Part shown: piece by piece, positions 22,819 through 47,919 of the stretch
Layout of the letters: each line of letters begins with the position of its first letter
Position numbering within the stretch: the first letter of the stretch is position 1
NCBI RefSeq assembly: GCF_018476525.1
Contig: NZ_JAHCST010000010.1
Location: 1-64,000, forward strand
DNA: 64,000 nt
Source of the DNA: Acrocarpospora catenulata
GTDB lineage: Bacteria; Actinomycetota; Actinomycetes; Streptosporangiales; Streptosporangiaceae
Direction: 5' to 3'
Position numbers and translations under genes: made by a program
The notes under the pieces: generated by a model
What the model was told of the DNA's origin: nothing
Seen by the model: the letters and a program-made list of their open reading frames with translations, nothing else
The model's database searches: none

Positions 22819-22848
22819 TTGCGCATTTCGGGCGAAGCGGTCTAAGGT
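22819..22848 (+). promoter_or_regulatory. candidate promoter of the RiPP operon
   Basis: TTGCGC and TAAGGT are separated by 18 bp, resembling actinobacterial -35/-10 elements. The predicted start would fall at the left edge of the Zur-type palindrome. Assigned by eye only. Confidence 0.4.
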
Positions 22849-22858
22849 CGGCGACGGA

Positions 22859-22875
22859 ATGAAAACGGTTTTCAT
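22859..22875. promoter_or_regulatory. Zur-type box (Fur-family operator)
   Basis: ATGAAAACGGTTTTCAT is a perfect palindrome around one base; its inner 15 bp TGAAAACGGTTTTCA fits the actinobacterial Zur consensus (TGAAAAT-N-ATTTTCA type) except for one symmetrical base pair. It lies between the candidate -10 and the ribosome binding site of the precursor gene, where zinc-loaded Zur would block transcription. The palindrome is seen; Zur identity rests on known consensus. Confidence 0.75.
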
Positions 22876-22891
22876 TTCAGAAGGAGGAGTT

Positions 22892-23077
22892 GTGGAAGTC
22901 AGGTTCCAGGAGCTGACCCCGCAGGCCGTGCTGCCGGCCCTGCAGGGTCCGGGTACCAACGCGCTCGTGCACAACCCGTTCAAGTTCGAGGAACTGGCCG
23001 CTGAGCCGGTGCTCCCCGCGCTGCAGGGCCCGGGGACGAACGCGCTGGTGCACAACCCGTTCAGCTGGAGCGCCTGA
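22892..23077 (+). CDS. RiPP precursor peptide with two tandem units
   Basis: The 61-aa peptide starts at a GTG with AAGGAGGA just upstream; an ATG 33 nt earlier lies in the Zur box and has no ribosome binding site. It consists of two 27-residue units, RFQELTPQA and KFEELAAEP each followed by the identical VLPALQGPGTNALVHNPF, then a tail SWSA. Each unit looks like a short recognition segment plus core. There is no Cys; the only hydroxyl residue in each repeated core is Thr, while His and Asn could bind metal. The position before ocin-ThiF and YcaO genes marks it as their substrate. Confidence 0.85.
   Translation: MEVRFQELTPQAVLPALQGPGTNALVHNPFKFEELAAEPVLPALQGPGTNALVHNPFSWSA
22928..23062 (+). 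repeat. tandem 54-nt coding repeats with silent-only differences
   Basis: Copies at 22928-22981 and 23009-23062 encode the same 18 residues, yet 7 of 18 codons differ, all silently. This indicates selection on the peptide rather than a fresh duplication. Confidence 0.9.
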
Positions 23078-23084
23078 GCTCCGA

Positions 23085-23117
23085 GCGGGCGGTCCGTCTT
23101 CCCGGCGGGCCGCCCGC
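23085..23117 (+). terminator. attenuator-like hairpin after the precursor gene
   Basis: GCGGGCGG and CCGCCCGC pair across a 17-nt loop in the 90-nt gap before the next gene. Partial termination here would give more precursor than enzyme mRNA, a common RiPP arrangement; role inferred. Confidence 0.45.
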
Positions 23118-23167
23118 GCCCCTCCCGAGGTCCCGAGCCGTTGAGACGCAGAGCGTGAGAGAAGGAC

Positions 23168-23920
23168 ATGGAGAGCATCGCCCCAGGCCATCACCTGTAC
23201 GTCGGCCCTGACGGAACCTGGCGGTCATGTGACGAGCAGGAGCGGTTCGCGCGGATCAGCGGGCCGCCGGAGCTGCTGGCCCGGATGCGGGCGCAGGCGT
23301 ACCAGGGTGGCGCCGACCCGGAGTTGGAGCCGCTTACCGAGGTGCTGCGGGCGCGTGGTGTGGTGCGCGAGATGACCATGCCAGACCGGACGATCACGGT
23401 GTCGGTGCGGGGTGGCACGCCGGTGGCGGCGGCGGTGGCGGAGCTGCTGGCCGGGTGCGAGCGGGTGACGGTGGCGCCGCCGGAAGCGGACGCCGATGTG
23501 CTGGTGGTGTGCGCGGGCTGGCTGCCGGACAGCGAGTGGTTGCGGCTGGACGCCACCGGTGTGGTGTGGCATCGCTGCCACGTCGAGGGCACGCGGCTGG
23601 TGCTGGGGCCGATGACCGTGCCGGGGGAGACCGCGTCCTACCGGGACCTGCGAGGTCGCAGACTGGCCGCCGCCGCGCTGCCGGACGAGCTGGCCGCGTA
23701 CTGGGCCTACCTGGAGTCCGGGGAACCGCTGCCGCCGGTGACGTGGCCCAACCAGGGGGCGGTCGCGCTGGCCGCCGGGCTGCTGGTCAACGACGTGCTG
23801 ACCTGGCGGGACACCGGCCGTCCCGCCGCCGCTGATCGGCAGCTGGTGGTGGATCCGGCGACCGGCGAGGTCACCCGCCACCCGGTGCTGCCGCTGCCCC
23901 TCGTGAGCGGGTCGAAGTGA
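23168..23920 (+). CDS. ocin-ThiF-like TOMM leader-peptide-binding protein
   Basis: The 250-aa protein has an N-terminal segment (about 1-75) that could be a peptide-recognition winged helix, and a C-terminal E1/ThiF-like half. That half contains ADVLVVCAGWLPDSEWLRLD and WHRCHVEGTRLVLGPMTVPGETASYRDL, closely like the ocin-ThiF/TOMM C-protein pattern in which a substrate-binding partner activates a YcaO enzyme. No ATP-binding ThiF loop is evident, as usual for this class. An AGAAGGAC ribosome binding site precedes the ATG; the next gene overlaps by 4 nt. Confidence 0.75.
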   Translation: MESIAPGHHLYVGPDGTWRSCDEQERFARISGPPELLARMRAQAYQGGADPELEPLTEVLRARGVVREMTMPDRTITVSVRGGTPVAAAVAELLAGCERVTVAPPEADADVLVVCAGWLPDSEWLRLDATGVVWHRCHVEGTRLVLGPMTVPGETASYRDLRGRRLAAAALPDELAAYWAYLESGEPLPPVTWPNQGAVALAAGLLVNDVLTWRDTGRPAAADRQLVVDPATGEVTRHPVLPLPLVSGSK

Positions 23921-25407
23921 GCGAGTTCAACCTGCGGATCCCCGGCTGGGACGGCACCGCGCTCGCCGCCGACGCCCACCTCCCCGACCCCGCACACTGG
24001 CCGGTCCCCACCGTCGTCACCCGCACCCCGTACGGCCGGACCGGCCATCTGGCCGAAGGACGTGGCTGGACGGCGCGCGGCTTCGCCTACGTGGTGCAGG
24101 ACGTGCGGGGACGGTACGACTCCGACGGCGTCTGGGAGTGCTACCGCAACGAGCGCGGCGACGGCGCGGCGCTCGCCGACTGGATCGCCGCCCAGCCGTG
24201 GAGCGACGGCCATCTGATCGGCTACGGCGGCTCCTACAGTGGCTACACCGCGTGGGCGCTGGCGGCGGAGCGTCCTGAGCGAGTCCCGGCGCTGGTGAGC
24301 CTGGGCCCGTCGATGGCCATGCACCGGACCAAGTTCGAGGGCGGGGTGCTCCGGCTGGCCGAGCACGCCGCCTGGTGGCTGGCCAGGGCCGACGGCCGTA
24401 CCAGCAGGGACGACTTGGTCGGCGCGGTCTTCCACAACCGGCCTGAACTGCTCGCCCACCTGCCGGTGGTGGAGCTGCCCGAGGCCATGGGGGTCCGGTT
24501 ACCGGGCTTCCGCGAAGTGATCGAAGCGGGGCCGTACGCCCGGCCGGACCAGGAGATCACCGAACGAGAACTGGCCGCGCTGCCGGTCGCGGGCCTGCAC
24601 GTCGGCGGCTGGTACGACCTGCTGGCCGAGGAGACCTTCCGGCTCTGGCGACAGGTCGGCACCGCGCTGCCCCAGCGGCCACCGCAACAACTGGTGGTCG
24701 GCCCATGGGGACATGACCTGGCCTTCGCCGGCCGTACCGCCGTGGGGGACAGGGAGCATGGCCCCGAATCGCTGCTGGACCTGGGCGGCCTGGCCGTGAC
24801 CTGGATCCGGGACGTCCTGGCGGGCCGCGCCACGAGCGGCACCCGGGTGTTCCACCTCGCCGCCGACGTCTGGGAGGCGTGGCCGGAGCAGACCACCACA
24901 GACACCCTGCACGCCCACCGTGACGGAACCCTCCAGCCCGTCACCGCCATGCTCGGCGCCTTCTTCACCCACGACCCGGAGGATCCGTACCCCACGCTTC
25001 CGCCCGGAGCCGACCGCCGCACACTCGACGCGAGGCCGGACGCCCTCCGCTTCGTCACCGACCGGCAGGACGGCAGGACGGTGATCGGGGCATCGGTGGA
25101 GTTGGACGGGTCCGCGCCGGTCGCCGACGTGGACTGGGTCGTCCGGCTGGTCGAAGTCACCGCCGACGGCCGCGCCTTCGATCTGGGGCGTGGCTGCGCG
25201 CGCGGCACCGGCCCGCACCGGATCCCGTTGAGCCCGTTCGCCGTTACCCCGGGGCCGGGCTCCCGGCTGAGGCTGGAGATCAGCGGTGCTGACTTCCCCC
25301 GGCTGGCCCGCTCCCTCGGCACCGGCGCCGACCGCTACACCACCACCCGGACGGCTCCCGTCCGCCAGACCGTGCACACCGCCGCCCTGCACCTGGAGCT
25401 CTCGTGA
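23917..25407 (+). CDS. CocE/NonD (X-Pro dipeptidyl-peptidase S15-like) hydrolase
   Basis: The 496-aa protein is an S15/CocE-type serine hydrolase. VVTRTPYGRTG and VVQDVRGRYDSDGVW are family signatures, the nucleophile elbow GYGGSYSGY puts the catalytic Ser at residue 106, and VVGPWGHDLAF is the His region. A jelly-roll C-terminal domain starts near residue 330. In a RiPP operon such an enzyme may trim or hydrolyse the modified peptide. The precursor has Pro residues in LPAL, GPG and NPF, so proline-directed cleavage is attractive but unproven. It is embedded with 4-nt overlaps at both ends. Confidence 0.85.
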   Translation: MSEFNLRIPGWDGTALAADAHLPDPAHWPVPTVVTRTPYGRTGHLAEGRGWTARGFAYVVQDVRGRYDSDGVWECYRNERGDGAALADWIAAQPWSDGHLIGYGGSYSGYTAWALAAERPERVPALVSLGPSMAMHRTKFEGGVLRLAEHAAWWLARADGRTSRDDLVGAVFHNRPELLAHLPVVELPEAMGVRLPGFREVIEAGPYARPDQEITERELAALPVAGLHVGGWYDLLAEETFRLWRQVGTALPQRPPQQLVVGPWGHDLAFAGRTAVGDREHGPESLLDLGGLAVTWIRDVLAGRATSGTRVFHLAADVWEAWPEQTTTDTLHAHRDGTLQPVTAMLGAFFTHDPEDPYPTLPPGADRRTLDARPDALRFVTDRQDGRTVIGASVELDGSAPVADVDWVVRLVEVTADGRAFDLGRGCARGTGPHRIPLSPFAVTPGPGSRLRLEISGADFPRLARSLGTGADRYTTTRTAPVRQTVHTAALHLELS

Positions 25408-26750
25408 CATCTCCGGAAGACCTGCTCGTCGACCCGCGTACCGGCGTCCTGACCGCGCTGGCCCGCCAGCGGCGCAGACCCGGCCTGCCCCGGTTCTGGC
25501 TCGGGTACGGCTCCGCGGTCGCCGACACCCGCAGGCACTCGGCCTGGACCGCGGACCGGTTCGGGTTCGGCGCGGCGGCCGGAGACGCCGAGCGGGCCCG
25601 GCTGGCGGCGCTCGGCGAGGCGGTCGAACGGTACTGCGGCAACGCCGTACCGGACGGCCTGGTCACCGCGTCCTGGCGGCGGCTCGGCGGACGCGCGCTG
25701 GACCCGGAGACGATCCCGCTCTACTCGGCGGCCCAGTACGCGACACCCGGCTTCCCGTTCAGGAAGTTCACCCGTGACCTGGAGGTGGCGTGGACGCCCG
25801 CGACCGACCTGGCCACCGGGGCGGAGGTCCTGGTTCCCGCGTCGATGGTGTGGCTGGACTACTTCCACGGCCCGCGCGAACCCGAACCGGCCACCCACGC
25901 GCTCGCCTACTCCGGGATCGCGGCGGGCCACACCAGAGCGCAGGCGGAACGCTTCGCCCTGGAGGAGTTGTTCGAACGGGACGCCACCACCATCTGGTGG
26001 GCGAGCGGTGCGACCGTCCCCACGCTGGCCGACCCTGAGCGGATCACCGCCCGGCTCGGCGAACCCGCCGACGGTGAGGGACCGCGGGTCCGGCTGCTGC
26101 CGGTGCCGTCGGAGTTCGGCGTGCCCGTGCTGGCCGCGTTCCTGGAGGACACCCGGGAACGGATCGTCGCGTTCGGCAGCGCCTGCCGCGCCGACCCGGC
26201 CGAGGCGGCGGTCAAAGCCCTGGTCGAGGCGTACGGGCTGTACGCGCTGGCCCTCCAGCTCGCCGACCCGTCCGGCGAGGTCTGGCAGGCGATGGCCGGG
26301 GGCACCCTGGAGGGGCACGTGTTCCGGCCGTACCGGGCAGACCGCCGTTACCGGGACGCCTTCCGGGCCGACTACCGCGATCTGACCGACCTTCCGGCCA
26401 TCGCCCAGCTCTACCTGGACCCGGACATGCAGGGCGCACCCCTCGATCGGCTGCGCGCCGGCCCCGGCCCGCGCCTGGCCGACCTGTCCGCCGCCGACCC
26501 CGGCTCCTACCTGGACCGGCTGGCCGCCGCCGGGCTCACCGCGTACAGCGTGGACCTCACCACCTCGGATGTGCGGGCCGCGGGCCTGTGCGTGGTGCGG
26601 ATGCTGGCCCCGGGACTGGTCGGCAACGCCCCGCCCGCCTTCCCGCTGCGCGGCGGCGCACGCCTCTACCGGACCCCGCGCCTGCTCGGCCTGACCGACC
26701 GGGACCTGACCGAAGACGACCTGTTCCCCCACCCCTTACCGCTGGCCTGA
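25404..26750 (+). CDS. YcaO-family cyclodehydratase, copy 1
   Basis: The 448-aa protein has YcaO nucleotide-site signatures: ARLAALGEAVERYCGN, ERFALEELFERDATTIWW and EAAVKALVEAYGLYALAL. It ends with the proline-rich FPHPLPLA, reminiscent of the C-terminal PxPxP of azoline-forming YcaOs. The family uses ATP to phosphorylate a backbone amide, forming azolines, amidines or thioamides. Together with the ocin-ThiF-like protein it should act on the duplicated precursor. It starts inside the stop of the preceding gene. Confidence 0.88.
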   Translation: MTSPEDLLVDPRTGVLTALARQRRRPGLPRFWLGYGSAVADTRRHSAWTADRFGFGAAAGDAERARLAALGEAVERYCGNAVPDGLVTASWRRLGGRALDPETIPLYSAAQYATPGFPFRKFTRDLEVAWTPATDLATGAEVLVPASMVWLDYFHGPREPEPATHALAYSGIAAGHTRAQAERFALEELFERDATTIWWASGATVPTLADPERITARLGEPADGEGPRVRLLPVPSEFGVPVLAAFLEDTRERIVAFGSACRADPAEAAVKALVEAYGLYALALQLADPSGEVWQAMAGGTLEGHVFRPYRADRRYRDAFRADYRDLTDLPAIAQLYLDPDMQGAPLDRLRAGPGPRLADLSAADPGSYLDRLAAAGLTAYSVDLTTSDVRAAGLCVVRMLAPGLVGNAPPAFPLRGGARLYRTPRLLGLTDRDLTEDDLFPHPLPLA

Positions 26751-26751
26751 C

Positions 26752-28059
26752 ATGCATCAGAACCTGATCGACTCCCGCACCGGCATCGTGCGCCGCCTGG
26801 AGACCGCCCCGATCCCTCCGCAACTGCCCGCCTCGTTCTCTCTGGTCACTGCCGTCCTGGCCGACACGACCAGGTTCGGCCCGTGGCCGTCCGACTCGGC
26901 CGGGGCCGGGTACGCCTTCGCCGACCCGGACGCTGCCCGCGCGGCGGCGCTCGGCGAGGCGGCCGAACGGTACTGCGGCAACCTCGTCCCGCCCGGCCTG
27001 CGCACAGCCGCCTTCGCCGAACTGGACCGTCCCGCCCTCGACCCCGCCGACCTGGCCCTTTACTCGGCTGAGCAGTACGAGCGCATCCCCCTCCACCCGT
27101 TCACCCGGGACCTGCCCGTGGAGTGGACGGAGGCCACCGATCTGGTGACCGGCCAAGCTGTGCTGGTGCCTGCCGGGCTGGTATGGGTGTCGTATTTCTC
27201 AGCCGATGTCACGCCGCCGTCGCCGCGTACCAATCCGGTCATCCAGGCGGGTCTGGCCGCCGGGCCCGATCTTGCTTATGCGGCGTGGGGAGCGCTCTGC
27301 GAGATCGTCGAACGGGACGCGATGACGCTCGCCTGGCACGGCCGGGCCGGGTTGCGCGCGGTGGAACCGCCGCCCTGGCTGGCCGCCTTCGCCCGAGGCC
27401 CGCTCGACCGGCTGGATACCCGGTTCCTGTCCTTTCCCACGACGACCGGCCTTCAGGTGATCGGGGCGCTGGTCCGCGACCTCGGGACCGGCTACCTCAC
27501 GCTGGGCATGGGGGTACGGGCCGAGCAGGTGGGCGCGATGCTCAAGGCATACGGGGAGGCGTTGCAGCTCCAGTTGTTCGTCGCCGGGCTGGACGATCCG
27601 GACGGTCCGTACTGCCGGGCGGCGGCCGACCCGCGCAGCCCGCTCAAGCCGTGGCGGCCTGGCCGCGACTACGGCTCGGCGTACCGGGACGATCTGGCCG
27701 ACGTCGTCGATTACGGCTGCCACCTGCAACTCTTCCTGGACCCCGCCGTGCAGGAGCGGTTCGAGGCCGAGCTTGCCGAGGCGCTCACCGAAGGCGGCGA
27801 TCCGCCGCGCGTCCCGCCGCCCCGGGATCTGGCGGAGCTGGCCTCACGGGTCGCGCGGCCGGCTCAATCACCCGGGCCGCAGGTCCTGCTGGCCGACCTG
27901 ACCACCCCTGACGTGGCCTCGGCCGGGCTGCGCGTGGTCCGCCTGATCGCGCCGGGCACCTACGCCAACACAGCGGCCGGGCTGCCGTTCCTCGGCGGCA
28001 CCCGGCTCGCCGCCAGCCTGGCAGGACGGCCCCGCCGCGCCCTGCCCCTCCCGCACTGA
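26752..28059 (+). CDS. YcaO-family cyclodehydratase, copy 2
   Basis: The 435-aa protein is a diverged paralogue of the preceding YcaO: ARAAALGEAAERYCGN, AAWGALCEIVERDAMTLAWH and GAMLKAYGEALQLQLF correspond to the same ATP-site segments. Both also share LYSAEQY/LYSAAQY, PFTRDLPVEWTEATDLVTG-like stretches and a G-x-R-L ending. Two D-type YcaOs beside one ocin-ThiF partner suggest a heterodimer or two successive modifications. The C-terminus ALPLPH is less proline-rich than in copy 1. It begins 1 nt after the first copy's stop. Confidence 0.88.
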   Translation: MHQNLIDSRTGIVRRLETAPIPPQLPASFSLVTAVLADTTRFGPWPSDSAGAGYAFADPDAARAAALGEAAERYCGNLVPPGLRTAAFAELDRPALDPADLALYSAEQYERIPLHPFTRDLPVEWTEATDLVTGQAVLVPAGLVWVSYFSADVTPPSPRTNPVIQAGLAAGPDLAYAAWGALCEIVERDAMTLAWHGRAGLRAVEPPPWLAAFARGPLDRLDTRFLSFPTTTGLQVIGALVRDLGTGYLTLGMGVRAEQVGAMLKAYGEALQLQLFVAGLDDPDGPYCRAAADPRSPLKPWRPGRDYGSAYRDDLADVVDYGCHLQLFLDPAVQERFEAELAEALTEGGDPPRVPPPRDLAELASRVARPAQSPGPQVLLADLTTPDVASAGLRVVRLIAPGTYANTAAGLPFLGGTRLAASLAGRPRRALPLPH

Positions 28060-29097
28060 ATGAGCACCCCGTTGACCCATCTCCTTTCCGGGCGCCGCTA
28101 CCCGCTCGCCCTCGCCGCCGTGGCCGTCGCCCTGCCGCTGGGGCTGGTCGCCGCCGTCGCGCTCGGCGCGGTCGACCTGCCCGCCGCCGACGTCTGGCAG
28201 GTGATCGCCGCCCATCTGACCAACCGGGAATCCGGCGTCGACGCCATCGACGACGAGATCATCTGGGGCTCCCGGGCGCCGCGCGCCGTGCTCGCGATCG
28301 TCGCCGGGGCCGGCCTGGCCGTCGCGGGCGCGGTGCTCCAGGCGGTCGTCCGCAACCCGCTGGCCGACCCCTACGTGCTCGGCGTGACCTCCGGCGCCTC
28401 GCTCGCCGCCGTCGCCGCGATCACGCTCGGCGGGCTGGCCGGGATCGGGGTCGCCGGGGCCGCCTTCGCCGGGGCGTGCGCCTCGCTGGCCTTGGTGCTC
28501 CTGCTCGGCCGCAGGCACGGCACGCTCACCGCGACCCGCCTCGTGCTCGCCGGAGTCGCCCTGTCCTACCTGCTCCAGGGCGCGACCAGCTTCCTCCAGT
28601 TGCGCGCTCGCCCGGACGAGCTGTCGGGGCTGCTGTTCTGGCTGCTCGGCTCGGTGTCCGGGGTCGGCTGGGGTGACCTGGCCGTGCCCTGCGCGGTGGT
28701 GGCCTGCGGTACCGCCTGGCTGCTGGCGCGCGGACGGCGGCTCAACGCGCTGCTGCTTGGCGACGAGACCGCGCTGACCCTCGGGGTGCCGGTGCACCGG
28801 TTCCGGCTGGAACTGCTGGCCGTCACGGCGCTGCTGACCGGCGCGGTGATCGCGGTGGCGGGCGGGGTGGGGTTCGTCGGGCTCGTCGTGCCGCATGCCG
28901 TACGGCTGCTGACCGGGCCTGACCACCGGCGCACGCTGCCCCTGGTTGCGCTGACCGGTGGGCTCTTCCTGCTGCTTGCCGACCTGGCCGCGCGCACGCT
29001 GATGCCGCCGCTGGAACTGCCGCTTGGCGTGCTCACCGCGGCCATCGGCGCCCCCTTCTTCCTGTGGCTGCTGCGGCGCGAGTCGGCGGTGCTCTGA
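28060..29097 (+). CDS. FecCD/BtuC-type ABC transporter permease
   Basis: The 345-aa protein has about ten membrane helices and the FecCD hallmark RNPLADPYVLGVTSGASLAA, plus LLFWLLGSVSGVGW and VGFVGLVVPHAVRLLTG. This class imports metal-siderophore complexes, cobalamin or haem. Its start abuts the YcaO stop, placing import in the same transcript as peptide synthesis. No other permease is present, so a homodimer is expected. Confidence 0.9.
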   Translation: MSTPLTHLLSGRRYPLALAAVAVALPLGLVAAVALGAVDLPAADVWQVIAAHLTNRESGVDAIDDEIIWGSRAPRAVLAIVAGAGLAVAGAVLQAVVRNPLADPYVLGVTSGASLAAVAAITLGGLAGIGVAGAAFAGACASLALVLLLGRRHGTLTATRLVLAGVALSYLLQGATSFLQLRARPDELSGLLFWLLGSVSGVGWGDLAVPCAVVACGTAWLLARGRRLNALLLGDETALTLGVPVHRFRLELLAVTALLTGAVIAVAGGVGFVGLVVPHAVRLLTGPDHRRTLPLVALTGGLFLLLADLAARTLMPPLELPLGVLTAAIGAPFFLWLLRRESAVL

Positions 29098-29873
29098 TGC
29101 GGATCGTCCTGGACGGCGTCACCGTCACCGTGGACGAGACGCCGATCGTGTCCGGAGTGGACATAGAGGTGCCGCCCGGGTTGCTGGTCGGCCTGGTGGG
29201 GCCCAACGGCAGCGGCAAGTCCACCCTGCTGCGCGCGGTCTACCGGGCACTCCGGCCCACTGCGGGGGCCGTCCGGCTGGACGGGGCCGACCTGCGGACC
29301 CTGTCGGTCCGGGAGTCCGCGCGGCGTACGGCCGTCGTCGCCCAGCACTCGGGTGACGGCTTCGACTTCACCGCGTTGGAGATCGTCGCCACCGGGCGCA
29401 CCCCCCACCGCGCCGCCCCCGCCGAGGACCGGCGGATCGTCGCCGAGGCCCTGGAGCGTGTCGGGATGACCGCCCAGGCCGGACGTCTGTTCAGCACGCT
29501 CTCCGGCGGGGAGCGGCAGCGGGTCCTGCTCGCCCGCGCCCTCGCCCAGCAGGGCCGGGTGCTGGTGCTGGACGAGCCGACCAACCATCTCGACATCGGT
29601 GCTCAGCTCGACCTGCTCGAACTCGTCCGCGACCTGCGGGTGACCACGCTGGCCGCGCTGCACGACCTCAACCTGGCCGCCGCCTACTGCGACCTGCTGC
29701 ACGTCGTCCACCAGGGCCGGATCGCCGCCTCGGGGCCGCCCGCCGACGTGCTCCAGCCTGACTTCCTCGCCGAGGTGTTCGGCGTACGCGCCCACCTCGG
29801 CAGTCACCCGCTCACCGGGCGGTCCCACCTCAGCTTCGCCCCGCTCAAGAACACCGGAGAGACCCTCACATGA
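29097..29873 (+). CDS. ABC transporter ATP-binding protein, FecE/BtuD type
   Basis: The 258-aa protein has Walker A GPNGSGKST, Q-loop VVAQHSGDGFDF, signature LSGGERQRV, Walker B VLVLDEPTNHLD and H-loop LAALHDLNLAAAY. It belongs to the siderophore/cobalamin importer class. The ATG overlaps the permease stop by one base (TGATG), and the binding-protein gene overlaps its end by 4 nt. Confidence 0.92.
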   Translation: MRIVLDGVTVTVDETPIVSGVDIEVPPGLLVGLVGPNGSGKSTLLRAVYRALRPTAGAVRLDGADLRTLSVRESARRTAVVAQHSGDGFDFTALEIVATGRTPHRAAPAEDRRIVAEALERVGMTAQAGRLFSTLSGGERQRVLLARALAQQGRVLVLDEPTNHLDIGAQLDLLELVRDLRVTTLAALHDLNLAAAYCDLLHVVHQGRIAASGPPADVLQPDFLAEVFGVRAHLGSHPLTGRSHLSFAPLKNTGETLT

Positions 29874-30865
29874 TCAACAGACTCACCCTCGCTGTGCTGG
29901 CCACCCTGACCCTCGGCGTCACCGCCTGCGCCCCGAACCCCGCTTCCGTCGTGGACTCGGCCTCCGCCCCGGCCGTCCCCGCCGCCAGCGCCTTCCCCGC
30001 GCAGGTCACCAACTGCGGGCGGACCGTCCGGGTCACCGCGCCCCCGCAGCGGATCGTGTCCTTCTTCCCCTCCAACACCGAACTGCTGCTCGCACTCGGC
30101 CTGAAGGACCGGATCGCCGGGCACGTCTGGGCCAACCAGTCACCGCCCAAGCCCGCCTACGCAGCCGACTACAACCGCCTGACCGTGCTGGCCGACGGCC
30201 AGATCTCCCGGGAGAGCCTGTTCGCCGCCCGGCCCGACTTCGTCCTGGCCGACGGCGAGTACAACTTCGACGGCAAACAACTCCCCACCATCGCCGAACT
30301 GGAGAAACTCGGCGTCCCCGTGTACGTCGGCGCCGCGTTCTGCCCCGCCACCACCGGCACCGCCACCCTCGCCGACGCCACCGCCGACCTGGACGCCCTC
30401 GGCGCCCTCCTCGGCGTTCCGGACGCCGCGGCCAAGGCCCGCGCCGACGTGGACAGGACCCTCGCCGACCTGCGGCAGCGTCTTTCCGGACGTCCCGCCG
30501 TCCCCGCCGCCATGGTCCAGATCTTCGACAAGCAGCTGTACGCGCTGGCCGGCGGCCTGTACTCCGACATCCTCCGCACCTCCGGCGCGACCGACGTACT
30601 GGCCGGCATGATCCCCGAGGGCCGGAACTTCGACGCCATCTCCGCCGAGGCCGTCGCCAAGGCCGACCCCGAAGTGATCATCTACCACCACACGTCCGAG
30701 GACGACCGCGCCGCCGGCGAACAGTGGCTCCGCACCCACCTCGCCCAGACCCGCGCCGTACGGAACAACCGCCTGGTTGCCACGCCCGCCGCCGACTACG
30801 CCGAACTACGGGCAATCGACGGCGTACGCACTCTTGCCCGGGCCCTCCACCCTGAAGCGTTCTGA
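29870..30865 (+). CDS. FecB/BtuF-type substrate-binding lipoprotein
   Basis: The 331-aa protein has a lipobox TLGVTAC with Cys20 as lipidation site, a Ser/Ala/Pro linker, then a periplasmic-binding fold with a helical backbone: TVRVTAPPQRIVSFFPSNTE, ESLFAARPDFVLADG, DILRTSGATDVLAG, AKADPEVIIYHH. It would capture the imported metal-peptide complex or another chelate at the cell surface. It lacks the His-rich loop of ZnuA proteins, so free zinc is a less likely ligand. Confidence 0.88.
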   Translation: MINRLTLAVLATLTLGVTACAPNPASVVDSASAPAVPAASAFPAQVTNCGRTVRVTAPPQRIVSFFPSNTELLLALGLKDRIAGHVWANQSPPKPAYAADYNRLTVLADGQISRESLFAARPDFVLADGEYNFDGKQLPTIAELEKLGVPVYVGAAFCPATTGTATLADATADLDALGALLGVPDAAAKARADVDRTLADLRQRLSGRPAVPAAMVQIFDKQLYALAGGLYSDILRTSGATDVLAGMIPEGRNFDAISAEAVAKADPEVIIYHHTSEDDRAAGEQWLRTHLAQTRAVRNNRLVATPAADYAELRAIDGVRTLARALHPEAF

Positions 30866-30958
30866 GGTTCTGATGCGGACTCTCGCTCGGGCCTTTTGCC
30901 GTTGCCCGGGGCTCTGAGGTTCGGCCTCGCTCGGGCCGCCACCCCGAAACGTTCTGAT
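30846..30958 (+). repeat. degenerate duplication of the binding-protein gene 3' end
   Basis: CCACCCTGAAGCGTTCTGA at the gene end recurs about 95 nt later as CCACCCCGAAACGTTCTGA, with CTCGCTCGGGCC twice between. It fills the gap before the MFS gene and does not encode anything evident. Confidence 0.5.
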
Positions 30959-30980
30959 AGGACCCTCCTGAAGGCTTGAT

Positions 30981-32189
30981 ATGGCAGAGTCTCCTCGCCC
31001 ACGGGCTTCCATGCGTCTGTTCCTGCTCGCCCGCGCCGTCTCCTGGGGCGGATCCGCCGTCACCCTGGTCGCGTTGCCCGTCCTGATCTACCAGCGCACG
31101 GGCAGCGCCGCCCTCACCGGCCTGCTCAGCGCCCTGGAGGCGGTGCCGTACCTGCTGCTGGGCCTGCCCGCCGGGGCGCTCGCCGACCGGTGGGACCGGC
31201 GGCGGACCCTGGCCGTGACCAGCTGGGCCGGGGCACTGCTGGTCGGCAGCGTGCCGCTCGCCGCGATTCTCGACCTTCTCACCACAGGCCAACTCCTGCT
31301 GGTCGCGGCGGGCACCGCGAGCGCCTTCGTCTTCTTCGACGCCGCCGCGTTCGGCGCGCTCCCCGCCCTCGCCGGACGGGACGGCGTCGCCCGCGCCACC
31401 CGCGACCTGATGACCGTCAGCACCCTGATCGGCCTGGCAGGACCCCCGGCCGCCGGGCTGCTCATCGCCACCATCGGCGCCCCGGAGGCGCTGCTACTGG
31501 ACGCGCTCAGCTTCGCCGCCGCCGCCCTCCTGCTCGCCCGCCTCACCCTGCCCGCCATCCCGCGTACGGCCCACCGCGACCTCCCGGGCGAGATCCGCGC
31601 CGGGTTCCGCTTCATCACCGGCCACCCCACCGTCGGCCCGCTGACCTGGCTGGGCATCGGCAACAGCCTGACCGAGGGCGCCGTACTCGGCCTCATCGTC
31701 GTGGTCGCGGTCCAGCGGGTGGGCCTGGACCCCCACGACACCCGACTCGGCCTCTTCTACGGCGCCGCCGCGGTCGGCACCCTGCTCGCCTCCACCGCAC
31801 TCCCCGCCCTACGCCGCCGCCTCCCGCCCTCCCTCATCACCCTGCCCGCCCTGGCCGCCAACGGGGTCTTCCTCGCCCTCTGGGCCATCACCCCGAACCT
31901 GGTCCTCTCCCTGGCCATCCTGCTGATCTGGCAGGCCGCCAACACCCTGGCCAGCCTCAACGGCATCATCGAACGCCAGGAACTGACCCCCGACGACCTC
32001 CAGGGCCGGGTCAACACCACCGCCCGCATGATCGCCTGGGGCGGCTTCCCCGCCGGCGCCGCCCTCGCAGGCCTGCTCGCCCAGCTCACCGGCCCCACCA
32101 CCGCACTGCTCACCGCCGCTGTCGCGGTGCTGCTCACCCTCGCCACCCCGGCAGCCCGTGATCTCGCGGGAACCGGGAGATCACGCTGA
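30981..32189 (+). CDS. MFS transporter, EntS-like exporter
   Basis: The 402-aa protein has about 12 membrane helices and the loop motif GALADRWDRRRTL between helices 2 and 3. The start ARAVSWGGSAVTLVALPVLI and the LTGLLSALEAVPYLLLGLPA segment match the MFS_3 group that includes enterobactin exporter EntS. It lies 115 nt behind the binding-protein gene on the same strand, so it may export the mature peptide. A hairpin (GTGATCTC / GAGATCAC) at its end could terminate the operon. Confidence 0.85.
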   Translation: MAESPRPRASMRLFLLARAVSWGGSAVTLVALPVLIYQRTGSAALTGLLSALEAVPYLLLGLPAGALADRWDRRRTLAVTSWAGALLVGSVPLAAILDLLTTGQLLLVAAGTASAFVFFDAAAFGALPALAGRDGVARATRDLMTVSTLIGLAGPPAAGLLIATIGAPEALLLDALSFAAAALLLARLTLPAIPRTAHRDLPGEIRAGFRFITGHPTVGPLTWLGIGNSLTEGAVLGLIVVVAVQRVGLDPHDTRLGLFYGAAAVGTLLASTALPALRRRLPPSLITLPALAANGVFLALWAITPNLVLSLAILLIWQAANTLASLNGIIERQELTPDDLQGRVNTTARMIAWGGFPAGAALAGLLAQLTGPTTALLTAAVAVLLTLATPAARDLAGTGRSR

Positions 32190-35627: not shown

Positions 35628-36517
35628 GTTGCGACCCCTCGTAGGGGCGATGAGGACCGCGGCCTCCACCGCGCACGCCGGACACCCCGGAGGTTGCGAC
35701 CCCTCGTAGGGGCGATGAGGACTGTGGAAGCAGAAGCAGCCCGGGATGATGTACCTGTTGCGACCCCTCGTAGGGGCGATGAGGACCTGTGCGCACCGAG
35801 GCGACCCGGCCCCGGACCGTGGCGTTGCGACCCCTCGTAGGGGCGATGAGGACCGGAGGGCACGCCGGAGTACGCGCACATTGCCGCGTTGCGACCCCTC
35901 GTAGGGGCGATGAGGACGAGCACCCGGGGCTGCTGCGCCCGGGTCAACATCTGGTAGTTGCGACCCCTCGTAGGGGCGATGAGGACGCGGCACCTCACCG
36001 AGTGCCCCGTCTACGGCAGCCGGTTGCGACCCCTCGTAGGGGCGATGAGGACTGCAAGAGCAGGCGGCCGTCTGGACTCGACCGCCAACGTTGCGACCCC
36101 TCGTAGGGGCGATGAGGACAGGGCACCGGCGTCCTGCTCGGCGCCTCCGACTGCGAGGCGTTGCGACCCCTCGTAGGGGCGATGAGGACCCCCGCCACCC
36201 CGGGCAGCAGCGAGGAAGCCGTGTTGCGACCCCTCGTAGGGGCGATGAGGACCCCCACCATCCCGAGGAACTCCCCGACATGCGCAAGGTTGCGACCCCT
36301 CGTAGGGGCGATGAGGACCCGGGATCGACGACTGGATGGTGCTGTTAGCCAGGTTGCGACCCCTCGTAGGGGCGATGAGGACAGGGGCTGCGCGACCGGA
36401 TCAACGCGGTGCTCACGTACGTGTTGCGACCCCTCGTAGGGGCGATGAGGACCTGAAGGAGCAGGAGCGGGAGGCGAAGAAGCACGCGTTGCGACCCCTC
36501 GTAGGGGCGATGAGGAC
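35628..36517 (-). CRISPR. CRISPR array 1: 14 repeats, 13 spacers
   Basis: A 30-nt repeat (plus strand begins GTTGCGACCCCTCGTAGGGG and ends CGATGAGGAC) occurs 14 times without visible variation, separated by 34-40 nt spacers. In crRNA sense the repeat ends GGGGTCGCAAC, giving the 8-nt handle GTCGCAAC, and CCCCT-ACG-AGGGG forms the hairpin. The array is transcribed leftward from the leader on its right side. Uniform repeats suggest an active or recent array. Confidence 0.97.
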
Positions 36518-39202: not shown

Positions 39203-39959
39203 GTTGCGGCCCCTCGCAGGGGCGATGAGGACCACGCCTGACGCCTTTCTCGCGGCACCGATGGCGTGCGGTTGCGACCCCTCGTAGGGGTGATGAGGAC
39301 AGGGTCACCGTGCCCTTGCCCCAAAAACCTCATCAGGTTGCGACCCCTCGTAGGGACGATGAGGACCGGCGTAGCCACCTGCAAAGACACCTGGTCGTCA
39401 CTGAGGTTGCGACCCCTCGTAGGGACGATGAGGACCCGTCCGTTCCGCGCGATCGGCCATCCGCCGTAGTTGCGACCCCTCGTAGGGGCGATGAGGACGG
39501 GCGTGAGCGCTCAGGGCATGTGGCAGTTCGCCGGGTTGCGACCCCTCTCAGGGGCGATGAGGACGGGCGTGAGCGCTCAGGGCATGTGGCAGTTCGCCGG
39601 GTTGCGACCCCTCTCAGGGGCGATGAGGACCACCCCAATGGCATTCGCCCGAGCGGCAGTCTCCGCAGTGTTGCGACCCCTCTCAGGGGCGATGAGGACC
39701 GCTGGACGCGTCGGATGACGCCATGCGTCACGGTTGCGACCCCTCTCAGGGGCGATGAGGACGCGGGGAGTCCGGCCCCGGCGCGCGGCCGATGCACCGT
39801 TGCGACCCCTCTCAGGGGCGATGAGGACCTCAGAACAGGACGTGGAAGGAGACCGTCCAACAGCGTTGCGACCCCTCTCAGGGGCGATGAGGACCTGCGC
39901 TCGCCGCGCTTCGGGTAGTCCTCGATGACGTTGCGACCCCTCTCAGGGGCGATGAGGAC
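39203..39959 (-). CRISPR. CRISPR array 2: 12 repeats, 11 spacers
   Basis: The same 30-nt repeat family as array 1, transcribed leftward. The five leader-distal repeats have loop CGT or CGC and some other changes (GGGAC in repeats 3-4, GGGGT in repeat 2). The seven leader-proximal repeats all have CCCCTCTCAGGGG, so only the hairpin loop changed. Two adjacent spacers, after repeats 5 and 6, are identical. Spacers are 34-40 nt. Confidence 0.96.
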
Positions 39960-40247: not shown

Positions 40248-40976
40248 GTGAGGTTACGGATAGAGGTCACCACGGGGGCCAGTGAGCTTGCATGGGCGAA
40301 GGTGTTGGCGCCCGGCCGTGCTCTGGCGTACGACCTGCTTGCGCGGGAGGCGCCGGAATTGGGGCAGCGGCTGCACGCCCAGGGGGCGGGGCCGTACGGC
40401 ATGGTTCCGCTGGGGTATGGGGCTCCGGTGTTTCCGCAGGCCGTGCGGCGGCGTGGCGCGTACGCGGTGGGTGGGAGGGGTTGGGTTGAGCTGGGGAGCC
40501 CTCTCTTCGAGGTGATGGCCGCTTTTACACAGGGGATCAAGCAGCGGGAACTGCTCGATTGGGGCGGCGCCGCGTTCCGCGTTCTGCAGGTCAGAGTCGT
40601 CGAACCCCCGGCGTACGCATCCGGGCGAGGGCGCTTCCGTACCAGCACTCCGGTGGTTATGAAGGGGGCCGGTCAGGACCAGTCGGGCCAGCGGACCACG
40701 CGGCAAGCGTGGCTGCTGCCGACTGACCGGGAGTTCCCCGTGTTCTTTCAGCGGAATCTTCGGCGTAAGGCGGAGAGTCTGGGGCTGGATCCGGATGTGT
40801 CGCTCACGGAGATCTCCTGGGTGGGGGCCAAGCGTTCCTTCGCTGTAGCGCAGGGGGCGAAGCCGGGAGCGCCCATCGAGGTCGAGTTGGCGGGTCCTCC
40901 GGAGACCCTTCAGGCCATCTGGAGCTGGGGGCTCGGGCAGGCCAACGCCGCCGGCTTCGGCTGGGTCACGGCGTGA
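40248..40976 (+). CDS. cas6: Cas6 CRISPR RNA endoribonuclease
   Basis: The 242-aa protein begins MRLRIEVTTGASELAWAKVL and ends with the glycine-rich LGQANAAGFGWV, the RAMP G-rich loop of Cas6. The length and lead position in a type I-B operon agree. It would cut the array transcripts within the repeat to leave the GTCGCAAC handle. GGGAGGA precedes the GTG. As the only Cas6 in the window it probably serves the type III-D complex as well. The next gene overlaps by 4 nt. Confidence 0.82.
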   Translation: MRLRIEVTTGASELAWAKVLAPGRALAYDLLAREAPELGQRLHAQGAGPYGMVPLGYGAPVFPQAVRRRGAYAVGGRGWVELGSPLFEVMAAFTQGIKQRELLDWGGAAFRVLQVRVVEPPAYASGRGRFRTSTPVVMKGAGQDQSGQRTTRQAWLLPTDREFPVFFQRNLRRKAESLGLDPDVSLTEISWVGAKRSFAVAQGAKPGAPIEVELAGPPETLQAIWSWGLGQANAAGFGWVTA

Positions 40977-42391
40977 GCGAGGACGATCAGGATGAGGGGT
41001 TGCTCGTCGCGTTGAGCGCGCACCCGTTGCAGCGGGTCGGTGCGTACGCGCTGGCGGCTCTTGCCAGGACAACCACGCCGGAAGGTCTGTCCGCCGAAGG
41101 GTTCCGAGACGCCGTCGGCACAATCACGGAGCATGCGATAACGGCGGCCCTGGTCCGCGACACCAAGAGTGAGCGCGGTTTCTGGCTCAAGGCCAGCCTG
41201 TCGTTCTTCCCAAACTCAAAGATGAATCATCACACCAATGCAAGAAGGGAGGACGAGGAGATTCGCGCCGCCGTACGGCTGTGGCGTCGCGAGCCGGAGT
41301 ACGGCGCCAGGCCAGGAGTGGCGTGTGTGCTGTGCGGACGGGCAGCCGTCGGCTTCTTCGGCAAGGTCGACGTGCCGCTGGCCGAAAGCGACCTCTATCG
41401 GAACAACACCCCACGGGGACACCTGGGGATGGCGTTGTGCTGGCCGTGTTTGTGCAGCTTCTACGCCCTCCCGTACGGCTGCCGCCTCACGGGAGGCCCG
41501 TCGATCGCCCTGCACAGCTGGGACGAGCGTTTCATGGCACGGACCGTGTCACGCCGGGTGGAGCGCAACCGCCAACTGATCGCCCTCGGCCTCCCAGACT
41601 CCCGCGCCATCCGCGCGAAGGAGGTCGTGGCCCTACAGGCGCTCCGCGACCACGAGGACCGGCTGACGGCGGGCGTGGAACTGCTCGTCTTCAGCAACAA
41701 CAACCGGGGCCAGACGCTGGAGATCCAGTCCATGGACCAGCCACTCGCCGAGTGGCTGCGCCGCTCGGCACGGCAGCCGTCGCGGCGGCGTGGTTTCCCC
41801 GCGTTGCTGCGCGCTCATTCGACGCCGGACCGGCCCGGCGTCGTGAATCTCGCCCGGAACGCGTTCCGATCCCCGGAGCTGATCGCTGGGGCCTGCGCCC
41901 GCTACCTGGCCAAGCGGCTCGATCAAGGGGTGGTCGGCGCCGACGCAGCCGACCTGGCCGAGCTGTCCTTCTCCCTAGTGACCGAGGTGATGCGGATGAA
42001 CCAGAACGAGGTCGACGAGATCAGGTCGGCCGGGGCGCAGGTGGCGGCCTGGTTGGCGGCGGAGAACTCCGCGGGGAAGCTCCGCGAGTTCAACGCCACG
42101 CTCAAGGAGCAGAAGCGCATGCGGCACTGGCTGATGCGCCGCAACATCGACACCCTGCTCGCTCCGGTCCCTGGGGTGGACGGCCCGCTGATCACGGACG
42201 ACCAGTTCCGGCTGCTCTTCGATCCCGAGGTCGAGCAGGCGTGGTTTCACCGGCAGTTGCTGGTCGTGTCGGTCGTACGGCGGCTGCACGAACTGGGCTT
42301 CACACCCGCCGACCGGGCGCAGGTGGCCGCCGATCTGGCAGCCGAGGACAACGACGAGGACGTCGCGTTCATGAAAGGCGAGGAGTCGTAG
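40973..42391 (+). CDS. cas8b: Cas8b-like large subunit of type I-B Cascade
   Basis: The 472-aa protein has two CxxC pairs (CVLCGRAAVG and CWPCLCSF) forming a probable zinc finger near residues 117 and 160. The rest is mainly helical, as in Cas8b/Cst1-type proteins. Position between cas6 and cas7 supports the large-subunit role: PAM recognition and Cas3 recruitment. Sequence conservation is low in this family, so the name rests largely on context. Confidence 0.72.
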   Translation: MSEDDQDEGLLVALSAHPLQRVGAYALAALARTTTPEGLSAEGFRDAVGTITEHAITAALVRDTKSERGFWLKASLSFFPNSKMNHHTNARREDEEIRAAVRLWRREPEYGARPGVACVLCGRAAVGFFGKVDVPLAESDLYRNNTPRGHLGMALCWPCLCSFYALPYGCRLTGGPSIALHSWDERFMARTVSRRVERNRQLIALGLPDSRAIRAKEVVALQALRDHEDRLTAGVELLVFSNNNRGQTLEIQSMDQPLAEWLRRSARQPSRRRGFPALLRAHSTPDRPGVVNLARNAFRSPELIAGACARYLAKRLDQGVVGADAADLAELSFSLVTEVMRMNQNEVDEIRSAGAQVAAWLAAENSAGKLREFNATLKEQKRMRHWLMRRNIDTLLAPVPGVDGPLITDDQFRLLFDPEVEQAWFHRQLLVVSVVRRLHELGFTPADRAQVAADLAAEDNDEDVAFMKGEES

Positions 42392-43426
42392 ATGAGCTAC
42401 CTGGTGGGAAAGATCGTCCTGGATGTGGTGGCCGGGGCGCCCAACAACGGGCTGGGCGAGGACAACGTCGCCCGGGTGAAGCAGCTTCGGATCGGCCGGG
42501 ACGTCCACCCCTACGTCTCCGCCCAGGCGTTCCGCCGCTGGCTACGCGAATCGCTGCCCGCCTCCGAGCCGATGTCGCCGGTCATCCGGTCCGGTAGCGG
42601 CCAGAAGCAGCAGGCGTACACGAAGGGCCGGCCGGATCTCTACCTCGACGACGACCTGTTCGGGTACATGGTGGCCGTCAAGGGTGACAAGGCGAAGACC
42701 TGCCAAAGGGACACGGTGCTCGCCACAGGAACCTTCGTGTCGGTCGCGCCGCGTCCGCCCGTACGGGATTTCGGCACGATGAGCCGGGGTTTCGCGGCCG
42801 GTGAGAATCCGGTCCTGCACGGGCACGAGTTCTACAGCGCGGAGCTGGCCGGGGACGTGCTGCTGGACCTGCCCCGGATCGGCGTCTTCGAGATCGACGG
42901 CAGCGGCCTGAAGGTGGCGCTGCCCGAGCCCGCCGCCAAGGAGGCACGAGACGGCGGTGCCGAGCAGGTCACCTTCCGAGGCTGTACGGCGCTGCGTCTG
43001 GGCCTCGGGGAACGGCGACGTCGCGCCGCGCTGCTGCTGCGCACGCTCGCGGCGGTACGCGGTGGCGCCAAGCAGTCGATGCACTACGGCGACCGCACCC
43101 CCGCGCTGGTCCTGCTCGCTCCCCTCAAAGGCGGTGTCAACCCGTTCACCCGGGTGCTCGGGGTCCGGAGCGACCAGGTGCGATTCGATCCCACGGTCCT
43201 GCGTACCGAGATGGCCGCCTGGGCGGACGAACTGGACGGGCCGGTGCTGCTCGGCTGGGCGCCCGGTTTCCTCGGAGACCAGCGGGACCGTACCCGTTCC
43301 GAGCTGGCCGACCTGATCGAGTCCGGCAGCCTGGTCATCGATCATCCGCGGATTCTGCTCGGCGGTCTGGCGGACCAGATAGAGCGTGGTGAGCGGGACG
43401 CGTGGTTCGAGGACCCGAAGGCATGA
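42392..43426 (+). CDS. cas7: Cas7 backbone subunit (DevR/Cst2 family)
   Basis: The 344-aa protein starts MSYLVGKIVLDVVAGAPNNG and continues with DVHPYVSAQAFRRWLRESLP, typical of the Cas7/Cst2/DevR RAMP family, then RTLAAVRGGAKQSMHYGDRTP and KGGVNPFTRVLG. It would polymerise along the crRNA in Cascade. It abuts cas8b and overlaps cas5 by 4 nt. Confidence 0.9.
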   Translation: MSYLVGKIVLDVVAGAPNNGLGEDNVARVKQLRIGRDVHPYVSAQAFRRWLRESLPASEPMSPVIRSGSGQKQQAYTKGRPDLYLDDDLFGYMVAVKGDKAKTCQRDTVLATGTFVSVAPRPPVRDFGTMSRGFAAGENPVLHGHEFYSAELAGDVLLDLPRIGVFEIDGSGLKVALPEPAAKEARDGGAEQVTFRGCTALRLGLGERRRRAALLLRTLAAVRGGAKQSMHYGDRTPALVLLAPLKGGVNPFTRVLGVRSDQVRFDPTVLRTEMAAWADELDGPVLLGWAPGFLGDQRDRTRSELADLIESGSLVIDHPRILLGGLADQIERGERDAWFEDPKA

Positions 43427-44097
43427 CGACAGTCCGAGCCGCGGTGGAGGCGCTTGAAGTCACGGTCACCGCGCCGGTCGTCTCCTTTCGCAACCCCCTC
43501 TACGCCGGGGTGCAGGTGGCGCTGCCCTGCCCGCCGCCCTCCACCGTGGGCGGCATGCTGGCCGCTGCGGCCGGGGGCTGGGACAGAGTCTCTCCCGAGA
43601 CGCGATTCGCCATGGCGTTCCACGCTTCCGGCGTCGGCGTCGACCTGGAGACCTACCATCCGCTGGACGCCACCGGTAAGAAGGCGGATCCCACCCCTCG
43701 GGAACGCGAATTCCTGGCTCACGTCACGCTGACGGTGTGGCTCACCCAGGACGTGGAGCTGTGGGAGCGAAGGCTACGCAGGCCCGTCTGGCCGCTGCGC
43801 CTGGGCCGAAGCCAGGACCTGGTATGGGTCACCACCCGACGGGTGACGGTACGGCCTGGCCCCGGACGGCAGGGCGCGGCCGTACTTCCCGAGGAGACCG
43901 AAGTCCGGCCTTCAGGGGTTCTGCTGCGGTTGCCGACCGCGGTTTCGCTGGACCGGCAGCGCACCCGGTGGGACGGCTACTACTTCGACGCCTCAGGACG
44001 GAGCGACACCATCGTGGAGGCCTGCTGGGTGAACGACCAAGGCCAAGTGGTCGCCCAGTTGCCGCCGACCCATCCAGCGCGGCTGGCGGAGGGCTGA
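43423..44097 (+). CDS. cas5: Cas5 subunit of type I-B Cascade
   Basis: The 224-aa protein has the Cas5 N-terminal pattern: EVTVTAPVVSFRNPLYAGVQVALPCPPPSTVGGMLAAAAG when read in parts, including PPPSTVGGMLAAAAG, the conserved turn that defines Cas5t/Cas5h proteins, and LRLGRSQDLVWV. It caps the crRNA 5' handle. The ATG lies within the cas7 stop (ATGA). The next gene starts 1 nt after its end. Confidence 0.85.
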   Translation: MTTVRAAVEALEVTVTAPVVSFRNPLYAGVQVALPCPPPSTVGGMLAAAAGGWDRVSPETRFAMAFHASGVGVDLETYHPLDATGKKADPTPREREFLAHVTLTVWLTQDVELWERRLRRPVWPLRLGRSQDLVWVTTRRVTVRPGPGRQGAAVLPEETEVRPSGVLLRLPTAVSLDRQRTRWDGYYFDASGRSDTIVEACWVNDQGQVVAQLPPTHPARLAEG

Positions 44098-44098
44098 T

Positions 44099-46444: not shown

Positions 46445-46938
46445 TCAGCGCCGACGATGTGGGCGGTGTGCATATCAAGTACCTCTACCACTGCCGCCGG
46501 CAACTCTGGCTGTACGCCCGGGGGATACGTCCCGAGCAGCTCAGCGTCAGCGTCCAGTTGGGTGAGGCCGTTCACGAGACCTCCTACACCCGCAGCTCAC
46601 CGATCGACCTCGGCGCCGCGCGGCTCGACCATCTCGACGGCGCGGCCTGGGTGCACGAGGTCAAGTCGTCCTCCCGACCGAGCCGGGCGGACGAGGCCCA
46701 GGCGATGCACTACTGCTATCGGCTCATCAATGTGGGGGTCGCCGCGCAGGGCGGCATCCTGCACTATCCCAAGACCCGTCGCACCAGACGCCTGCCGTAC
46801 ACGGAGCAGGCGGCCGAGCAGGCGCGGGCCGATATCGCCGAGGTCCTGGCGGTGCTGGCCGCGCCCGACTCCCCACCCCGGCTCGCTCGATCGGCCTGCC
46901 GTGGCTGCTCCTACGCCGACTACTGCTGGAACGAATAG
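46441..46938 (+). CDS. cas4: Cas4 exonuclease of the adaptation module
   Basis: The 165-aa protein has GVHIKYLYHCRRQLWLY with the first cluster Cys, GAAWVHEVKSSSR (RecB-type nuclease EVK motif) and the C-terminal ACRGCSYADYCWNE with three more Cys for the iron-sulphur cluster. It helps Cas1-Cas2 trim and choose prespacers with the correct PAM. The GTG start overlaps the cas3 stop by 4 nt; cas1 follows directly. Confidence 0.92.
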   Translation: MISADDVGGVHIKYLYHCRRQLWLYARGIRPEQLSVSVQLGEAVHETSYTRSSPIDLGAARLDHLDGAAWVHEVKSSSRPSRADEAQAMHYCYRLINVGVAAQGGILHYPKTRRTRRLPYTEQAAEQARADIAEVLAVLAAPDSPPRLARSACRGCSYADYCWNE

Positions 46939-47919
46939 ATGCCCACCGCGTCCCGTACCTACTGGTTGACAGCGCCCTGCCGGATCCGTCGCAAAGATCA
47001 ATCACTGCGCATCGAACGGGCTGAAGGCGCTCCTGTGCACATCCCGATCACTGACGTGCGGGACATCGTCGCCTGCGAGGCCGTCGACATCAACACGTCC
47101 GTGATCAGCTTGCTCAACCAGCACCGCATCAACGTCCACTTCCTGAGCCATTACGGGGACTATGCGGGATCTCTGCTGACCTCGGAGACCAGTGTCTCGG
47201 GGCAGACCGTCATCGCTCAGGTCAGACTGGCCGAAGATCCCGGCGCCTCGCTTGGGGTCGCAAGGGCCATCGTGGCCAGTGCCGCCGCGAACATCCGTCG
47301 CGTGGTCGACCGCAAGCTCCTGGCCCGGCCGATGGCCGTTCTCGAAGCTTCGCTCGCGGATGCCTCCACCAAGGAGGAGTTGATGGGCGCCGAAGGCACC
47401 TTCCGCCGGTCGGCGTGGGCGGTGCTGGACACTCGCCTGCCCGAGTGGCTGCGCCTGGAGGGGCGGAGCCGCCGGCCTCCGCTCAACGCCGGAAACGCCT
47501 TCATCAGCTATGTCAACGGGATCGTCTACGCGCGCGTACTGTCGGCAGTCCGGCTCACCCCACTGCACTCAGGCGTCGCCTTCCTGCACAGCTCGATGGA
47601 ACGCCAGCGCCACTCACTCGTCCTGGACCTCGCCGAGGTCTTCAAGCCACTGTTCGCGGAACGGCTCCTGCTCCGGCTCGCGGGCCGGGGGCAGCTCAAA
47701 CCCGGCCACTTCGACGTGGACGTCAACCAGGCGATGCTCAGCGAATCCGGCCGCAAGCTGGTGATCCAGACCGTACGGGACGAACTGGCCGTGACGATCC
47801 AGCACCGGGGGCTGAGCCGGAACGTGGCCTACGAAGAACTGCTGTACCTGGAGGCTTTACAACTCACCCGCACCTGCCTGGAGGGCACACCGTACAAGCC
47901 GTTCCGGATCTGGTGGTGA
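46939..47919 (+). CDS. cas1: Cas1 integrase
   Basis: The 326-aa protein is a type I-B Cas1. Metal-binding residues are Glu152 (MGAEGTFRR), His217 (AFLHSSMERQRHSLVLD) and Glu233 (DLAEVFKPLF). The N-terminal beta domain contains ITDVRDIVACEAVDINTSVI and NVHFLSHYGDYAG. With Cas2 it inserts new spacers at the leader end of the arrays. Full length, no disruption. Confidence 0.95.
   Translation: MPTASRTYWLTAPCRIRRKDQSLRIERAEGAPVHIPITDVRDIVACEAVDINTSVISLLNQHRINVHFLSHYGDYAGSLLTSETSVSGQTVIAQVRLAEDPGASLGVARAIVASAAANIRRVVDRKLLARPMAVLEASLADASTKEELMGAEGTFRRSAWAVLDTRLPEWLRLEGRSRRPPLNAGNAFISYVNGIVYARVLSAVRLTPLHSGVAFLHSSMERQRHSLVLDLAEVFKPLFAERLLLRLAGRGQLKPGHFDVDVNQAMLSESGRKLVIQTVRDELAVTIQHRGLSRNVAYEELLYLEALQLTRTCLEGTPYKPFRIWW

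Follow-up and report, generated by a model that had tools for sequence, protein, structure and literature searches.

What does a peptide-making operon do when a Zur-type operator lies beside its promoter? The question is raised by a locus of Acrocarpospora catenulata, at positions 22819 to 32189 on the forward strand of a 64,000-nucleotide stretch (positions 1 to 64,000 of contig NZ_JAHCST010000010.1, the whole of which we call the window). The locus forms one operon-like run, in which a promoter-like pair and a palindrome are followed by a precursor gene and eight further genes. A sequence-only reading had described it as a Zur-controlled operon for a ribosomally synthesized and post-translationally modified peptide (RiPP), possibly a zincophore of a new class, with its own importer and exporter. 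The genes and the perfect palindrome of that description were all found in place. The best explanation, which we consider probable, is a streptamidine-family RiPP system for zinc starvation. The features of the locus are as follows.

22819 to 22848, forward strand: promoter-like pair TTGCGC-N18-TAAGGT; 12 of 18 loci of the alignment scan have a similar pair, similarly spaced from their box
22858 to 22876, no strand assigned: Zur-type operator, perfect 19-bp palindrome AATGAAAACGGTTTTCATT, from pattern and matrix scans
22892 to 23077, forward strand: precursor peptide of 61 residues with two motif-B repeats (NF040715)
22937 to 22954, forward strand: predicted core 1, ALQGPG, from alignment with the motif-A core HLSATH
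23018 to 23035, forward strand: predicted core 2, ALQGPG, from the same alignment
23168 to 23920, forward strand: AmiB-like leader-binding protein (TIGR03882, 1.2e-9)
23917 to 25407, forward strand: S15/CocE-type hydrolase, AmiC-like (Peptidase_S15, family scans)
25404 to 26750, forward strand: YcaO enzyme 1, exceeding the TIGR03604 cut-off
26752 to 28059, forward strand: YcaO enzyme 2, exceeding the TIGR03604 cut-off
28060 to 29097, forward strand: FecCD-family permease (family scans)
29064 to 29873, forward strand: ATP-binding cassette (ABC) ATPase of the importer (family scans)
29870 to 30865, forward strand: substrate-binding lipoprotein (Peripla_BP_2, family scans)
30981 to 32189, forward strand: major facilitator superfamily (MFS) exporter, EntS-like, its match to the EntS model lying under the cut-off

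Judged from its precursor, two YcaO enzymes, AmiB-like protein, hydrolase and FecBCDE-like importer, the operon belongs in the streptamidine family, on its motif-B branch with two YcaO genes. The precursor matches the NCBIfam model NF040715, 'streptamidine-related RiPP repeat protein', at 1.1e-34 (118 bits, cut-off 45) and contains NALVHNPF twice, with the conserved ALV of the family in each repeat. Russell and colleagues described more than 230 clusters and distinguished two precursor motifs, A and B, the latter usually found with two YcaO genes (PMC8442711). Since this family was already published in 2021 (PMC8442711) and the precursor belongs to NF040715, the proposal of a new RiPP class was rejected. 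The streptamidine (ami) cluster of Streptomyces albidoflavus J1074 shares with the window the precursor family, the AmiB-like protein, the hydrolase, YcaO and the FecBCDE-like importer. The window differs in having two YcaO genes, an MFS protein in place of two ABC exporters and another core, and no amiE-type dehydrogenase was recognised in its operon.

The gene set recurs across actinomycetes. Precursors matching NF040715 were found in 5 of 297 genomes of the host order and 8 of 394 of the class, the host genome being counted in both, and matches to the motif-A model NF040714 in 18 of 394 genomes of the class. A single alignment scan with the motif-B precursor retrieved 18 loci in nine genera (Acrocarpospora, Streptosporangium, Streptomyces, Agreia, Clavibacter, Plantibacter, Nocardia, Arthrobacter and Frankia). 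Six of these loci came from genomes already in the profile-scan set, and the scan thus added 12 further motif-B genomes; S. albidoflavus J1074 and the Firmicutes members lie outside the genome set examined. All eight accompanying genes are present in 15 of the 18 loci, and two others lie on short contigs. The cluster of Streptomyces lavendulae CCM 3239 (L138) is decayed, with a one-repeat precursor, a borderline box and a lone lipoprotein match. Nine of the 11 motif-B stretches from the profile scans hold all eight genes (in one the permease is cut by the edge), and the remaining two stop before the permease. Among the motif-A members, a 3.5-Mb genome (G373) has three precursor copies (L052, L058 and L060), two of them with boxes, and the copy of G043 scores under the model cut-off, has an in-frame stop and lies in a stretch with no YcaO match.

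What, then, would govern the operon? The palindrome starts 9 nt 3' of the promoter-like pair and includes a 15-nt box, TGAAAACGGTTTTCA, at 22860-22874, of the 7-1-7 operator type. Set against the S. coelicolor motif defined by footprinting, TGAAAATGATTTTCA, the box has 2 of 15 letters changed, and its core agrees with taaTGaNAANNNTTNtCANta. A first, degenerate box pattern had three matches. The pattern TGAAAACNGTTTTCA has its sole exact match in the 10.29-Mb genome at the window box, and with up to two mismatches it occurs at 10 places, against 1 for a reversed control pattern. Two of these places have one mismatch, the first before znuA (contig C13) and the second where a CooC-like ATPase gene begins (C97). 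On C13 a Fur-family gene lies downstream of genes that read as znuC-znuB and is likely zur; the genome has three Fur-family genes, two of them away from the C13 znu genes. With a 19-bp matrix trained on ZnuA-family promoters only, and on no precursor promoter, the window box scores 34.5, within the 21.0-35.7 range of the 20 training boxes, and the runner-up site in the window scores 8.7. The box ranks on a level with the znuA box of the same genome, and the low rank that would have spoken against Zur control was not observed.

The same matrix was applied across the family. For training, 20 of 30 ZnuA-family loci were kept (at least 9 of 10 seed letters) and 10 dropped, 23 further listed places having no locus or not being taken. 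The threshold of 15.4 is the 99.9% quantile of dinucleotide shuffles (one strand, 250 bp); it was reused for the 12 further motif-B genomes, which were scanned on both strands over 262 bp and in which L132 (16.2) and L138 (15.8) passed narrowly. A box above 15.4 precedes the precursor in 38 of 42 genomes, whichever the motif. From the profile scans these comprise 17 of 18 genomes with motif A (18 of 20 precursor copies) and 9 of 12 with motif B, and the alignment scan adds 12 of 12 further genomes with motif B. Twenty other YcaO loci (376 kb) yielded no site above 8.9 (0/20). These controls were drawn from the host's own family only, from genomes with no precursor match in three profile scans and from stretches free of an ALVx[NST]PF peptide, one genome (G145) possibly lying outside the NF040714 scan sample. 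Among the ZnuA-family loci of the alignment-scan genomes, 13 of the 21 scanned (25 fetched) score at least 15.0, and each of 11 genomes has one or more of these. The letters of the box vary by clade, from TGAAAACGGTTTTCA in the window to TGAGAATGGTTCTCA in Agreia and Plantibacter and TGGAAACCGTTTCCA in Nocardia, and the palindrome is kept. Box, operon and importer co-occur in nine genera, most weakly in Frankia, and homologous clusters devoid of both box and transporters, which the sequence-only reading had named as evidence against itself, were not what we found.

Further boxes lie beside the importer and beside zinc genes. In nine loci (seven motif-A, Agreia and Plantibacter), chosen for a second site seen in earlier scans, a separately transcribed importer has its own box directly before its first gene; in most of the other loci no second site above 15 lies by the importer. 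Of the 42 genomes, 12 also have, within the stretch that holds the cluster, genes of the zinc-starvation response or genes with which these share boxes. A. corrugata has znuABC and COG0523 there; the Frankiaceae have CooC-like, NucS-shadow-family and znuABC genes, and the other genomes have L32 and L36 paralogues and COG0523. A site of at least 14 lies beside such a gene in 11 of the 12 genomes, some of them weak (14.5), and none was seen in L125. By the same rule 0 of the 20 control loci has zinc-starvation genes, the only matches being generic ABC ATPases below 95 bits. The box could in principle serve another Fur-family regulator or another metal, as the genome has those three Fur-family genes and Fur-family boxes look alike. 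We consider this very unlikely, since the matrix was derived from ZnuA-family promoters and the boxed neighbours znuABC, COG0523 and the L32/L36 paralogues match published actinobacterial Zur regulons, which include ZnuABC, COG0523, RpmF and RpmJ (PMC2823685). Control of the family by Zur, with expression timed to zinc starvation, is thus very probable from the promoter comparisons, and strong support is given to the regulator that had been proposed for the window.

Two side observations concern these neighbourhoods. A CooC-like ATPase and a NucS-shadow-family protein (PF20704) are paired behind Zur-like boxes in Frankiaceae (L068:277-1803, L071 and L137), and in the host genome (L006, C97) the CooC-like gene and a 133-aa neighbour also lie behind a Zur-like box. 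CooC-like and NucS-shadow genes do not appear in the regulon list of PMC2823685, and they are a possible unrecognised zinc-starvation pair. In G582 (L065:10225-10624) a strong Zur-like box immediately precedes the gene of a 101-residue His-rich protein with no Pfam match, not far from the peptide cluster.

What would the operon make? The precursor likely starts at GTG 22892, with GGAGG immediately upstream; ATG 22859 was rejected as a start because it sits inside the box. Alignment of the repeats places ..LA-HLSATH-SNALVENPF of motif A against ..LP-ALQGPG-TNALVHNPF of motif B. HNPF was rejected as the core, because ALQGPG falls opposite HLSATH and NALVxNPF falls in the follower; this alignment predicts A[LP]QGPG as the core of motif B. 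Motif-B precursors contain from one to at least four copies of it, and three Frankiaceae genomes have APQDPT instead, which contains an Asp. The calculated [M+H]+ of dehydrated ALQGPG is 524.2827; calculated likewise, dehydrated HLSATH comes to 647.326, equal to the published streptamidine value.

The TIGR03882 match of the AmiB-like protein is shared by 13 of 15 homologues, and a profile search of this protein against the PDB gave no significant match. The closest solved structures to YcaO enzyme 1 are LynD and TruD. Both YcaO enzymes retain two ExxER-type motifs and a proline-rich end when aligned; one Gln, conserved in 10 of 10 YcaO2 sequences, is missing from 8 of the 10 YcaO1 sequences of motif-B clusters and from all 4 motif-A YcaO sequences, and the alignment gives no answer as to the division of labour between the two. 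The lipoprotein has an invariant lipobox Cys, and its solved relatives are annotated, among others, as hydroxamate- and B12-binding proteins. By family scans and solved relatives, importer and lipoprotein are of the metal-chelate type and are accompanied by an exporter, for which EntS is the closest named exporter.

On the basis of box and position, Zn-Zur would bind the promoter palindrome and silence the operon when zinc is sufficient; on zinc depletion Zur would leave and the promoter would become free. The AmiB-like protein would then hold the precursor and, by analogy with streptamidine, the two YcaO enzymes and the S15 hydrolase would convert each of the two predicted ALQGPG cores into a small amidine-type peptide. 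From their families, the MFS protein would export this peptide, and the lipoprotein and FecCD importer would retrieve it or its complex. The most likely purpose would be zinc acquisition, with the peptide as a zincophore or as a helper ligand beside ZnuABC. That it carries zinc directly is plausible and unproven, and we judge the case evenly balanced. A wider proposal, which we offer tentatively and as somewhat less than probable, is that the whole streptamidine family, both motifs included, is a Zur-governed zinc-acquisition system in which a ribosomal, YcaO-made zincophore cycles through its own exporter and importer, the isolated streptamidine being a shunt or degradation product of the compound actually made under zinc starvation.

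Several observations weigh against this picture of zinc acquisition under Zur. Four of the 42 genomes stay below the threshold (G349, G379 and G533 of motif B, 10.4-12.5, and G473 of motif A, 12.3), though each is still at p <= 0.007 against 300 shuffles of its own sequence. The third motif-A copy of G373 (L060, near a contig end) has no box (p = 0.22), and the box counted for G609 (L032, L137) lies 193 bp upstream, beside a divergent COG0523-like gene. The genomes are also kin by descent and the counts are not independent, as would be expected if the boxes were ancestral baggage or chance with no present function; this we find barely credible, as the letters change across clades while the palindrome stays and separate importers carry separate boxes. 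At the level of the peptide, streptamidine, which was isolated from a motif-A cluster, bound no metal, zinc (tested by liquid chromatography-mass spectrometry) included, and an amiD mutant had no metal-starvation phenotype (PMC8442711). The amidine ring has so far been demonstrated for motif A only (PMC8442711). The main argument against a plain zincophore is the predicted core, ALQGPG, from which His and Cys, the usual zinc-binding side chains, are absent; zinc binding would therefore need groups made by the enzymes. Such groups may be formed on the core, and we do not claim membership among the zincophores. The published negative assays may have been made on a shunt product, or may have missed a function redundant with ZnuABC.

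The zincophore role suggested for the window peptide stays a proposal, and the negative zinc-binding result and the core would also fit a Zur-controlled peptide that carries no zinc. It could be a signal of zinc starvation, a factor in competition or a peptide directed at an enzyme, re-imported for sensing or recycling. Signalling or development was indeed proposed by the authors of the streptamidine study, who had suspected metal import on account of FecBCDE-like genes and left the role of the family unknown (PMC8442711). We regard a non-carrier peptide as rather unlikely, given that the importer and lipoprotein are of the metal-chelate type, with their own boxes in nine loci, that the exporter has EntS as its best named match and that no receptor or regulator gene accompanies the eight shared genes.

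A zinc-starvation RiPP system would have partial parallels among known systems. Zur boxes are likewise reported on the coelibactin cluster, a small-molecule gene cluster for a Zur-controlled actinobacterial zincophore, and [S,S]-ethylenediaminedisuccinate (EDDS) has a further such cluster. Coelibactin is made non-ribosomally, and EDDS is no peptide comparable to streptamidine; uptake genes are a further common point. Bufferins are also reported as metal-linked ribosomal peptides but are copper-related and MNIO-made, not YcaO products under Zur, and methanobactins are ribosomal, metal-linked and copper-related. Bottromycin and klebsazolicin are antibiotics for which we know of no link to Zur. 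Both contain YcaO-made amidine rings, and bottromycin also has two YcaO proteins (PMC8442711).

Elsewhere in the window, two CRISPR arrays lie at 35628-36517 and 39203-39952, in which a 30-nt repeat occurs 14 and 12 times, respectively; the second array includes TCTCAG variants of this repeat. Beside the second array, at 40248-47919, are type I cas genes with matches to Cas6, Cas5, Cas3 and Cas1, and two large open reading frames between them match no Pfam family.

The gene family is thus known; what appears to be new is its assignment to Zur, along with the second importer box and the neighbourhoods of zinc genes. Zur is not mentioned in the main text of PMC8442711, and among the open-access papers listed none reported a link of Zur or zinc starvation to YcaO peptides or streptamidine; no precedent for a ribosomal YcaO zincophore was found there. 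The more than 230 clusters of the family were left with no role after metal, antibiosis and mutant tests (PMC8442711), and the Zur box offers a testable answer. Its occurrence in nearly all members examined places the family in the zinc-starvation response. The link to Zur indicates the condition under which producers should be grown, the background (lacking znuABC) in which a phenotype should be sought and the mass to look for. If the peptide does carry zinc, it would be a ribosomal, YcaO-made zincophore.

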